From assembly GCA_018335855.1 (NCBI GenBank), contig JAGXRM010000045.1:1-64000 (forward strand): a stretch of 64,000 nucleotides of DNA. The letters run 5' to 3'. Within the stretch, counting starts at the first letter, position 1. Each line of letters begins with the position of its first letter. This document shows positions 47,355 through 50,404 of this stretch, piece after piece. A program made the position numbers and the translations under genes. This DNA is from Clostridiales bacterium. GTDB taxonomy: Bacteria > Bacillota > Dethiobacteria > Dethiobacterales > Dethiobacteraceae. The notes below the pieces were generated by a model that made no database searches, was not told where the DNA came from, and was given only the letters and a program-made list of their open reading frames with translations.

Positions 47355-47386
47355 GTTTTTTAGTTCTAATCGCTACATCTTTAGAT

Positions 47387-47415
47387 AAGGCTACTGGATA
47401 ATATCCAGTAGCCTT
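47387..47415 (+). terminator. Terminator after the MerR-type gene
   Basis: A perfect 13-bp stem AAGGCTACTGGAT/ATCCAGTAGCCTT with a 3-base loop, followed by ATTGCAATTCTTT. The stem is strong and the T-run poor. Confidence 0.75.
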
Positions 47416-47425
47416 ATTGCAATTC

Positions 47426-47466
47426 TTTACCTGACTAGCTAATTGTGTTATAATTACGACAATTAG
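47426..47466 (+). promoter_or_regulatory. Promoter and operator of the PII-like/antiporter operon
   Basis: TTTACC (47426-47431), a 17-base spacer and TATAAT (47449-47454). The inverted repeat CTAATTGT (47439-47446) / ACAATTAG (47459-47466) flanks the -10 box, so a dimeric repressor bound there would cover it. Confidence 0.6.
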
Positions 47467-47513
47467 GACTATTCCGACACATGCAACTCTGAGGGTACAG
47501 GAGGATGAGAATC

Positions 47514-47864
47514 ATGGATATGCTAATGATTATTCTTAATAATGAAGAAGATACCGACCCCGTATTGCAAGGACTGTTAGATATAGGAGTTCGTGGGGCA
47601 ACGATTATTGAAAGCACGGGAATGGGCAGGACACTGTGTACAAAAGTTCCTATGTTTGGAGGTTTACGTACACTTTTTCAGGAATGTAGACCGACCAATA
47701 AAACAATTTTTTCAGTAATCCGCACCAAGGAAAAGTTACGCGAGGCTATTGAATTCATAAATAGTAAATTAAATCTGGAAAAGCCGGGTACTGGCTTTAT
47801 GTTTGTCCTTCCCGTTAGCGAGGCGTACGGCTTTGCTTCTGCCTTAGACTCTGAACAGAAGTGA
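47514..47864 (+). CDS. PII-like regulatory protein
   Basis: A 116-residue protein with the ferredoxin-like pattern of the PII superfamily: first strand MLMIILNNEE, GLLDIGVRGATIIESTGMGRTL where PII has its T-loop, and a closing strand GTGFMFVLPV. ATG 47514 has AGGAGG 9 bases upstream; ATG 47505 lies inside that site. PII-like proteins bind adenyl nucleotides and gate transporters. The gene for a cation/proton antiporter starts 8 bases after its stop, so it is probably the cytosolic regulator of that antiporter. The ligand is unknown. It is not a canonical GlnB (no uridylylation-site Tyr context). Confidence 0.7.
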   Translation: MDMLMIILNNEEDTDPVLQGLLDIGVRGATIIESTGMGRTLCTKVPMFGGLRTLFQECRPTNKTIFSVIRTKEKLREAIEFINSKLNLEKPGTGFMFVLPVSEAYGFASALDSEQK

Positions 47865-47871
47865 GGAAGAT

Positions 47872-49050
47872 ATGTTAAATAATCAAGCACTAGTTATAGC
47901 ATTATTACTATTTGGAGGCTTGTTGCTAAGTATACTGTTCCGCAGGTTTAGAATTCCAAGTGTATCAGCCTATATTTTTTTAGGCCTGATTCTAAGTCCG
48001 TCATTGCTAAACATAATACCAGGGAATGTTACGAAGGAATTAGTTATCATAAAAACATTGGGTTTGGGGTTTATTGCTTTTATTGTCGGCGGGGAACTCA
48101 AACTGGACAGAATTCAAAGTCTGCGCAAGTCTATTTTATATATGACCGGGCTATTAAGTTCAGTTACTTTTCTTTTTGTCTTTCTTGCCATGTACTTTGT
48201 AATTCGCCTGCCACTGCCGGTCGCACTGTTACTGGGAGCAACTTCTACCACAACTGCGCCCGCTCCCCCGGTGACAGTAATGAGAGAACTTCGTGCACGC
48301 GGACCATTCACTACTACACTGTTAGGCACAGTTGCAATGGCTGACGCAGCTGCAATTCTTCTTTTCGGTCTGATTTCCGCTGTTGTCTCTACTTTGCTAG
48401 CCGGAGGTCAGGGAACCATAATGTCTGCGCTTCAATACAGTGCTATCGAGCTGTTGGGCTCATTAGCACTGGGCTCTCTGGTTGCTCTCTGCATTGCTAT
48501 ATTGTTTACTAAGTACGATGCGGGAAAATATTCTCTTGTGATTATGCTGGGGACCATTCTGCTGGTTATTGGGATTTCTGAAATAGCTCATTTTTCTCCG
48601 TTACTGGCAAACCTAATTTGCGGCTTTACATTTGCCAATTTATATAATAAAGCAGATTTTGTCCTGTCATCCCTTGACCCGGTTGAGGCTCCGTTATTTA
48701 TTGCATTTTTTGCTCTCGCCGGAACTACTTTGCAGCTTGGGGTACTCGTTGCTAACTGGCCCATTGCATTAACATATATAATCATGAGATCTGTGGGCAT
48801 TCTTGTGGGAGTTGGTCTGGGGGCCCGCCTTTCAAATGCCGGTGAAAATATTCGACGTTATCTGGGTTCGGCAGTTTTGTCTAAGGCAGGTGTGACTATC
48901 GGATTAGTTATGTTGGTGCAGACCCGTTTTCCGGAAATAGCAGGTATTGTGACAGCCGTTGAATTTGCTGCAATCGCTTTCTTTGAAATTATCGGACCCA
49001 TATTAACGAGAAATGCTATTATTAAATCTGGAGAAGCACAAACGACGTAA
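47872..49050 (+). CDS. Cation/proton antiporter (CPA/NhaP-Kef type)
   Basis: A 392-residue membrane protein with about eleven or twelve helices. The unwound-helix region TSTTTAPAPPVTVMRELRARG corresponds to the T-D-P motif of CPA antiporters. The ion-binding pair in helix 5 reads TVAMADAAAIL, i.e. Ala-Asp where Asn-Asp or Asp-Asp is usual. It lacks the TrkA-N domain of Kef proteins; instead a PII-like protein is encoded just upstream in the same operon. It probably exchanges Na+ or K+ for protons across the inner membrane. Which ion cannot be told from sequence. Confidence 0.85.
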   Translation: MLNNQALVIALLLFGGLLLSILFRRFRIPSVSAYIFLGLILSPSLLNIIPGNVTKELVIIKTLGLGFIAFIVGGELKLDRIQSLRKSILYMTGLLSSVTFLFVFLAMYFVIRLPLPVALLLGATSTTTAPAPPVTVMRELRARGPFTTTLLGTVAMADAAAILLFGLISAVVSTLLAGGQGTIMSALQYSAIELLGSLALGSLVALCIAILFTKYDAGKYSLVIMLGTILLVIGISEIAHFSPLLANLICGFTFANLYNKADFVLSSLDPVEAPLFIAFFALAGTTLQLGVLVANWPIALTYIIMRSVGILVGVGLGARLSNAGENIRRYLGSAVLSKAGVTIGLVMLVQTRFPEIAGIVTAVEFAAIAFFEIIGPILTRNAIIKSGEAQTT

Positions 49051-49093: not shown

Positions 49094-49127
49094 AAAGCTC
49101 AGGTTGCCGCAAGGCTTCCTGAGCTTT
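49094..49127 (+). terminator. Terminator after the antiporter gene
   Basis: A 10-bp stem AAAGCTCAGG/CCTGAGCTTT with a 14-base loop that can itself pair partly (TTGCC/GGC). It lies 44 bases after the antiporter stop. Confidence 0.75.
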
Positions 49128-49375: not shown

Positions 49376-50404
49376 ATGGACAGAAGAAAGACTTTTTTAG
49401 CAGGACTTGCTTTGGTGCTGGTTTTGGCACTGGTAGCAGGTTGCGGTACGCAGGCGCCGCCGCAAACCACAAATCCCGTAGTAGAAGGGATTAGTGCCCT
49501 GGAGATGGCAAACCTCATTACCGCGGAATGGCAAGCATCAGGCAAGCAGTTTGCCATGAGTTACGCTGCCGGAAGAAGTGCAAATACCTGCGCTTCATGT
49601 CACGACGGTTATGGTTTTTCTGTGAAGAACGAAATTAATTTCGCCACAGAGTGGAATCCGGGTGGAGCAAATGCAGAGATGGAAATGAACCCGGAACACT
49701 TAACTGGCATTGGTTGCCAGGCATGTCATGCCGGTGCCGGTTTGGACTATATGAACAGCGGCACGGTGGAACTACCCTATGCTACCATCGATAACGCCGG
49801 CAAAGGCGCTGCTTGCATGTTCTGTCATAGTGGCAGGAGAAATACAGCAGCAGAATACGAAGCGTATGCAGCCGGTGGAGCCACACGTTTTTCCTATCCC
49901 CATTACGGACCTGCAGCCTTATTGACAGCAAAGGGCATGATGGAATATCCTGATATGGAGTACGCTTCTACAGGCGCCCATGCCAATATCGCCGACAGCT
50001 GTGTTTACTGTCATATGCCTGAAACGGAAGACGGCTATGTATCACACATATTTGTAATGGATGTCGCCTTCGTCGACCAAACATGCGGAAGCTGCCACAG
50101 TGGTATCGAAAATTACAATCTAAACGGTTACCAGGATAATGTTAAAGCTATGCTGACTCAACTAAAAGAGGCCGTTATGGAAGCAACCGGTGCTGTGGAT
50201 ATCACATCAGCATCAGGCCAGTTAGTATTTAAAGCTGCCGACGGTACATCTATGACAACAGACCAGATTTCAACAGAAGCATTTGTTGCAGGCTATAACT
50301 ATTATGGTATCAAGTCCGAAGGAAGCTATGGTGTTCACAATCCAAAATATACTGAATCTTTAATTAAAAACTCCTACAAAGCGTTAACAGGAGAAGATAT
50401 GTAA
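49376..50404 (+). CDS. Pentaheme c-type cytochrome lipoprotein
   Basis: A 342-residue exported lipoprotein: signal helix at 5-21 and lipobox LVAGC with Cys23. Five CxxCH heme-binding motifs are seen (C72, C114, C147, C209 and C237 as first cysteines: CASCH, CQACH, CMFCH, CVYCH, CGSCH), with further histidines that may be axial ligands. The C-terminus GVHNPKYTESLIKNSYKAL resembles the closing helices of NrfA- and Mtr-like multiheme proteins. It should sit on the outer face of the membrane and carry electrons. AAGGGGG precedes the ATG. No maturation genes or partner are nearby, so donor and acceptor are unknown. Confidence 0.88.
   Translation: MDRRKTFLAGLALVLVLALVAGCGTQAPPQTTNPVVEGISALEMANLITAEWQASGKQFAMSYAAGRSANTCASCHDGYGFSVKNEINFATEWNPGGANAEMEMNPEHLTGIGCQACHAGAGLDYMNSGTVELPYATIDNAGKGAACMFCHSGRRNTAAEYEAYAAGGATRFSYPHYGPAALLTAKGMMEYPDMEYASTGAHANIADSCVYCHMPETEDGYVSHIFVMDVAFVDQTCGSCHSGIENYNLNGYQDNVKAMLTQLKEAVMEATGAVDITSASGQLVFKAADGTSMTTDQISTEAFVAGYNYYGIKSEGSYGVHNPKYTESLIKNSYKALTGEDM

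Follow-up and report, generated by a model that had tools for sequence, protein, structure and literature searches.

What does a protein of the PII family do beside the gene of a cation/proton antiporter? PII proteins are the textbook example of how nitrogen and carbon status is sensed and are best known for the control of ammonium uptake; the question is raised by two adjacent genes in the stretch of 64,000 nucleotides that was analysed (the window). The initial annotation described them as a two-gene operon. Both ORFs are present as it read them, with 7 nt between the PII stop and the antiporter start, a GAGG motif overlapping the PII stop and a promoter-like site upstream, and they would form a single transcription unit. 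Use of an alternative in-frame ATG at 47505 would give a PII-family protein of 119 amino acids.

Features of the PII-antiporter locus (positions in the window)
Feature	Position	Strand	Basis and remarks
Terminator-like hairpin	47384..47418	+	16 pairs, 6 of them G-C; perfect 16-nt arms in 47385-47417; follows the upstream HTH gene
Promoter-like site, sigma-70 type, TTTACC-17-TATAAT, TG before the -10 box	47426..47454	+	Consensus match only
Perfect 8-bp inverted repeat, CTAATTGT-N12-ACAATTAG	47439..47466	.	Around the -10 box
PII-family gene, 116 aa	47514..47864	+	PF00543 match; predicted PII fold
T-loop, residues 40-62	47631..47699	+	Alignment; low model pLDDT, 55-60
B-loop P-G-T-G-F, residues 91-95 (canonical I-G-D-G-K)	47784..47798	+	Alignment
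CPA antiporter gene (NhaA fold), 392 aa, without C-terminal regulatory domain	47872..49050	+	PF00999 match; model
TM5 Ala157-Asp158, CPA-motif positions 6 and 7	48340..48345	+	Aligned with NapA D156-D157
TM10 Ile310 at CPA-motif position 8, where the conserved residue is Lys (NapA K305)	48799..48801	+	Alignment
Hairpin AAAGCTCAGG/CCTGAGCTTT 3′ of the antiporter gene	49094..49127	+	Read directly from the sequence

The first hairpin parts the upstream HTH gene from the pair, and the second, which has no T-run after it and so escaped the terminator scan, is likely to mark the end of the transcript. The promoter-like site ranks first among 6 in the 64-kb stretch (5.4 in shuffled sequences). No riboswitch or other known RNA family was found 5′ of the pair at E<=0.1. 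The inverted repeat said to frame the -10 box is indeed there and perfect, and may be a candidate operator, of local significance, or due to chance. The 2.96-Mb genome has a single copy of it, and no counterpart is evident 5′ of the relatives' pairs, in an upstream alignment that is poor because it includes one 3-kb sequence. A role as conserved operator was dropped on these two grounds, which are weak in view of that alignment.

Profile searches and structural models assign both products to families. The PII-family protein matches PF00543 (E=8.8e-8, 32.9 bits for a cut-off of 25), and so do 48 of its 51 relatives at E<=1. Its AlphaFold model, made for a single chain (mean pLDDT 83), has the ferredoxin-like PII fold with a T-loop, and in the PDB it comes closest to PII/GlnK proteins (prob 1.00), with PotN at rank 23. 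The antiporter matches PF00999 (E=1.6e-27, 96.8 bits, cut-off 26.2). Its model (mean pLDDT 88) has the NhaA fold and finds NapA (5bz2, TM 0.80), MjNhaP1 and KefC (0.77) as best PDB matches, so that profile and fold both place the protein in the CPA superfamily. The remark that it has no TrkA domain holds: a profile search of the 392 residues revealed neither the C-terminal RCK/TrkA-N domain of Kef systems nor any other second domain.

The PII-antiporter pair is conserved in many anaerobic bacteria. A scan of contigs with the PII protein gave 49 loci, some with two PII genes, two antiporters or both, and in about half of them an antiporter gene lies directly 5′ or 3′ of the PII gene. Among 60 relatives, an antiporter adjoins 20 of the 22 strong PII matches. 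Of 28 strong PII genes in the 98 genomes of the class, 25 have a window-type antiporter gene no more than 500 bp away, and in 23 cases the two share a strand. For the phylum, sampled evenly with 399 genomes, the corresponding figure is 67/88, all 67 on the same strand, and a more diverged PF00999 antiporter, confirmed by Pfam for the examples tested, adjoins 12 of the 20 inspected among the 21 PII genes without a window-type partner; adding these 12 to the 67 brings the antiporter-paired share to about 79/88. The concern that the pair might not be kept in other genomes is thereby answered. A position picked at random in a 2.2-Mb genome would have an antiporter within 500 bp in about 0.1% of cases, and the pairing is far beyond chance. 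The two genes also co-occur by genome (62/14/27/296 in the 399 genomes, Fisher p=3e-37), p-values that overstate independence because the sampled genomes are related.

The pair is spread over Bacillota families, with some loci labelled as other phyla. In 80 distinct same-strand pairs the PII gene is upstream in 51 and downstream in 29, and the flanking genes differ between relatives; these flips of order and varied flanks fit selection for the pairing itself and not frozen synteny. Distances between PII proteins correlate with those between antiporters (r=0.56, 0 of 2000 permutations as high), a correlation to which shared descent contributes in part. No PII-antiporter fusion was found among the ORFs of the loci examined. 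A contig titled Desulfovibrio (L010) and a locus of the window's class (L069) have identical PII and antiporter sequences; the former is therefore probably misbinned and was not counted as another phylum. Two plasmid matches of the PII protein were also considered: one is a record as long as a chromosome (Acetoanaerobium noterae), in which PII adjoins a DcuC-family carrier and not a CPA protein, and a plasmid location of PII was not retained. Five loci (L018, L024, L027, L028, L035) have two PII genes and one or two antiporter genes in a row, and in L024 two different antiporter types adjoin each other, an arrangement that suggests hetero-oligomers or partner-specific regulators.

The genome that contains the window repeats this organization. 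It encodes exactly two PF00999 proteins, each the partner of its own PII gene, and the second pair (contig C30) shares 57% (PII) and 46% (antiporter) amino acid identity with the first. The remaining two PF00543 genes lie in a row, 3′ of two DUF1538-like genes (four-gene row L191, contig C8, 2145-4224, minus strand). The DUF1538-like neighbours were identified from their sequence, and the homologous neighbour in locus L075 matches PF07556 (Pfam). In the relatives' loci L075-L077, L079, L080, L082 and L083 the two PII domains are fused in a single ORF of 230-290 aa. UmpAB, a DUF1538 pair known from Halomonas, exchanges Na+ (Li+, K+) for H+ (PMC5484666); the report on it makes no mention of PII.

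PII relatives without a CPA neighbour often adjoin genes for Mrp antiporters, Na+/Ca2+ exchangers, CLC channels, FeoB or DcuC. In loci L011, L013, L014, L019 and L022, a PII relative, in most cases with a PTS-EIIA-like gene after it, heads multisubunit Mrp antiporter genes (MnhE etc.); loci combining PII and Mrp come from MAGs titled Spirochaetes, Fermentibacteria, Aerophobetes and others. In three Chloroflexi-titled MAGs (L048, L050, L051) the PII relative is directly 5′ of a Na+/Ca2+ exchanger gene (PF01699) and its T-loop is unlike the others. The type of partner follows the PII tree, with 13 changes compared to 56 in shuffles (FastTree, 115 columns, many forks open), an agreement owed in part to shared descent. 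The T-loop, by which known PII proteins bind their targets, has a consensus that differs by partner class while G-A-T-I-x-x-S-x-G-M and N-K-T-I-F are constant. Tuning of the T-loop to its target would give such a pattern, but descent confounds this reading of the alignment.

The conserved pairing suggests that the antiporter is switched on and off by a PII-family sensor in response to a signal. We privilege the hypothesis, to which we give a reasonable though far from certain chance, that the PII-type protein acts in trans as the regulatory subunit of a dimeric antiporter that itself lacks a regulatory domain. The antiporter would be a NapA-like CPA2 exchanger of Na+ or K+ against H+. By analogy with its family, the PII protein would be a trimer with a small molecule bound in its intersubunit clefts, and its T-loop would touch the cytoplasmic face of the antiporter, a contact that would hold the antiporter inactive or release it. 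CPA antiporters are dimers whereas PII proteins are trimers, and to our knowledge all transporter targets of PII with known structure are trimers as well. This mismatch rules out here the symmetric plug of GlnK-AmtB and SbtB-SbtA; since CPA antiporters are dimeric, a new docking geometry would be needed.

Alternatively, the PII-family protein could report cation or pH status and act elsewhere, on transcription or on an enzyme, without contact with the antiporter, the genes being adjacent because they are expressed together. Canonical PII proteins do have several targets, some PII relatives stand alone (loci of Massilimicrobiota and Erysipelotrichaceae and several others have no transporter neighbour), and in two genomes of the class (G085, G074) the genes of the pairs are convergent instead of co-directional. 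We nevertheless find this explanation unlikely. The recognisable partners are nearly all ion or solute transporters, from CPA, Mrp and DUF1538 to CaCA, CLC, FeoB and DcuC, the T-loop changes with the partner, and the numbers of PII and antiporter genes are equal in several multi-copy loci. Contact between a PII-type protein and a transporter is proven for GlnK-AmtB and SbtB-SbtA.

Regulation in trans could extend beyond the CPA antiporters. We advance only tentatively, and with less than even expectation, that an anaerobe PII subfamily serves as an exchangeable regulatory subunit of unrelated ion transporters (CPA, Mrp/CPA3, DUF1538/UmpAB, CaCA, CLC), responding to a ligand other than ATP/2-oxoglutarate, controlling dimeric and trimeric carriers alike, with its T-loop tuned to the partner.

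The nature of the signal can be approached through the ligand pocket, aligned for 124 relatives with E. coli GlnB and GlnK as references. The glycine scaffold and T29 are kept (T29 124/124, G35 124/124, G89 120/124). The position of K90 is hydrophobic in all 124 relatives, R101 is replaced by Gly in 115 and R103 is lost. The position of Y51 is Thr in the window protein, and Tyr is outside the six commonest residues across the 124. With K90, R101, R103 and Y51 lost, canonical sensing of ATP and 2-oxoglutarate and control by uridylylation are unlikely, and the disappearance of the ATP-phosphate residues would point towards a new ligand.

c-di-AMP controls other K+ and Na+ transporters, and a more specific form of the in-trans explanation is that the PII protein is a receptor for c-di-AMP or another adenine-nucleotide second messenger, coupling osmotic or K+ signalling to the antiporter as the PF00543 equivalent of DarA/PstA. 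Two diadenylate cyclase domains are encoded in the genome, the pocket combines the loss of phosphate-side residues with an invariant adenine-side T29 and invariant glycines, and the PII-like protein SbtB binds c-di-AMP (PMC10117731). We give this receptor role a small chance. The window protein matches PF00543 alone and PF06153, the DarA/PstA family, is not among the 25 families listed for the 51 relatives, so that membership in DarA/PstA was dropped for want of a profile match; among known structures, canonical PII proteins and PotN come closest, and sequence alone assigns the ligand to no candidate. It is very improbable that the protein is an ordinary nitrogen-regulatory GlnB/GlnK that happens to adjoin an antiporter, a reading favoured by the PF00543 score above the gathering cut-off and dropped because the four canonical residues are missing from nearly all 124 relatives, no AmtB is encoded in the genome, the NCBIfam GlnB/GlnK scores are far below cut-off (14.9 bits for the equivalog cut-off of 181) and all 4 PF00543 genes of the genome adjoin antiporter-type genes.

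The antiporter that the PII protein would regulate in trans has a peculiar ion site. The reading of its helix-5 motif as Ala-Asp was right (Ala157-Asp158), in an alignment with NapA as landmark. As a feature of the system it does not stand, since 64 of 82 antiporter relatives, including the second pair of the same genome, combine Asp-Asp in TM5 with a TM10 Lys. The window antiporter has neither of these hallmarks of electrogenic CPA2 proteins, the change of the TM10 Lys to Ile310 having been overlooked by the initial annotation. Ala-Asp with Ile is found only in the window antiporter and, of the 82, in its nearest relative (L055). As judged from the alignment, it is a derived state of these two copies that goes with the loss of the TM10 Lys. 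Across the 82 antiporters this loss tracks that of the first Asp (7/17 versus 1/65, p=4e-5 with kinship ignored). Masrati et al. report K or R at CPA-motif position 8 in 95% of CPAs and tie Asp6 and Lys8 to electrogenic transport (PMC6181914); KefC, with the motif Q-D, is described as electroneutral (PMC11150392). Because Asp6 and Lys8 are lost, the window antiporter is predicted by analogy to these proteins to perform electroneutral exchange of one cation per proton. The antiporter of the second pair, with D-D and K, would be electrogenic by the same analogy. One genome thus offers matched antiporters (Asp-Asp/Lys and Ala-Asp/Ile), each with its own PII protein, which makes both the electrogenicity model and the specificity of PII directly testable.

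Several known systems resemble parts of this one. GlnK-AmtB is likewise an operon of a PII-family gene and a membrane transporter gene, conserved as a pair in many genomes, but its target is a trimeric channel whereas the window PII protein, devoid of K90, R101, R103 and Y51, is paired with a dimeric antiporter of NhaA fold. SbtB-SbtA shares a PII-like protein dedicated to one neighbouring transporter and a non-canonical ligand pocket. It differs in that SbtA is trimeric with another fold, and the window protein fits PF00543 and PII structures best and does not have the CGPxGC R-loop. PotN (PDB 7o4x) is, like the window PII, a Firmicute PII variant tied to a transporter; that transporter is a polyamine ABC system, and PotN carries Lys92 close to its B-loop (PMC9692440), whereas every relative of the window protein has a hydrophobic residue at the B-loop lysine position. 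On the antiporter side, KefC is also a CPA2 protein under ligand control with the first TM Asp replaced (Q-D in KefC, A-D here), but it is controlled by a fused RCK domain and KefF instead of PII, and keeps the TM lysine K307. NapA of Thermus, the best structural match, is an electrogenic CPA2 with D156-D157 and K305 where the window protein has A-D and Ile. The nearest, loose precedent for PII control of a proton/cation antiporter is PII-NG (Sant'Anna et al. 2009, cited in PMC7726332), a separate clade of PII proteins whose genes go with those of the RND pump CzcABC. PII-NG is described from Proteobacteria and with three-component RND metal pumps, whereas the clade described here is mostly from Bacillota and goes with single-gene CPA antiporters.

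The initial annotation called control of a cation/proton antiporter by PII a less known pairing, and a search of the open literature agrees with it, having brought up no description of PII together with a PF00999 antiporter. If regulation in trans is true, a widespread PII clade would act on dimeric cation/proton antiporters and PII control would reach pH, Na+ and K+ homeostasis.

The genomic surroundings of the pair differ from those in its family relatives. In L055-L057, L063 and L065 a DAHP synthase gene, in some cases within a trp-type operon, is followed by a hairpin and then by the pair or by PII alone. The window pair lies elsewhere, 3′ of an NFACT-family gene and the HTH gene. Directly 3′ of the pair, positions 49376-50404 encode a multihaem c-type cytochrome lipoprotein with partial similarity to NrfA (PF02335, residues 189-335 only).
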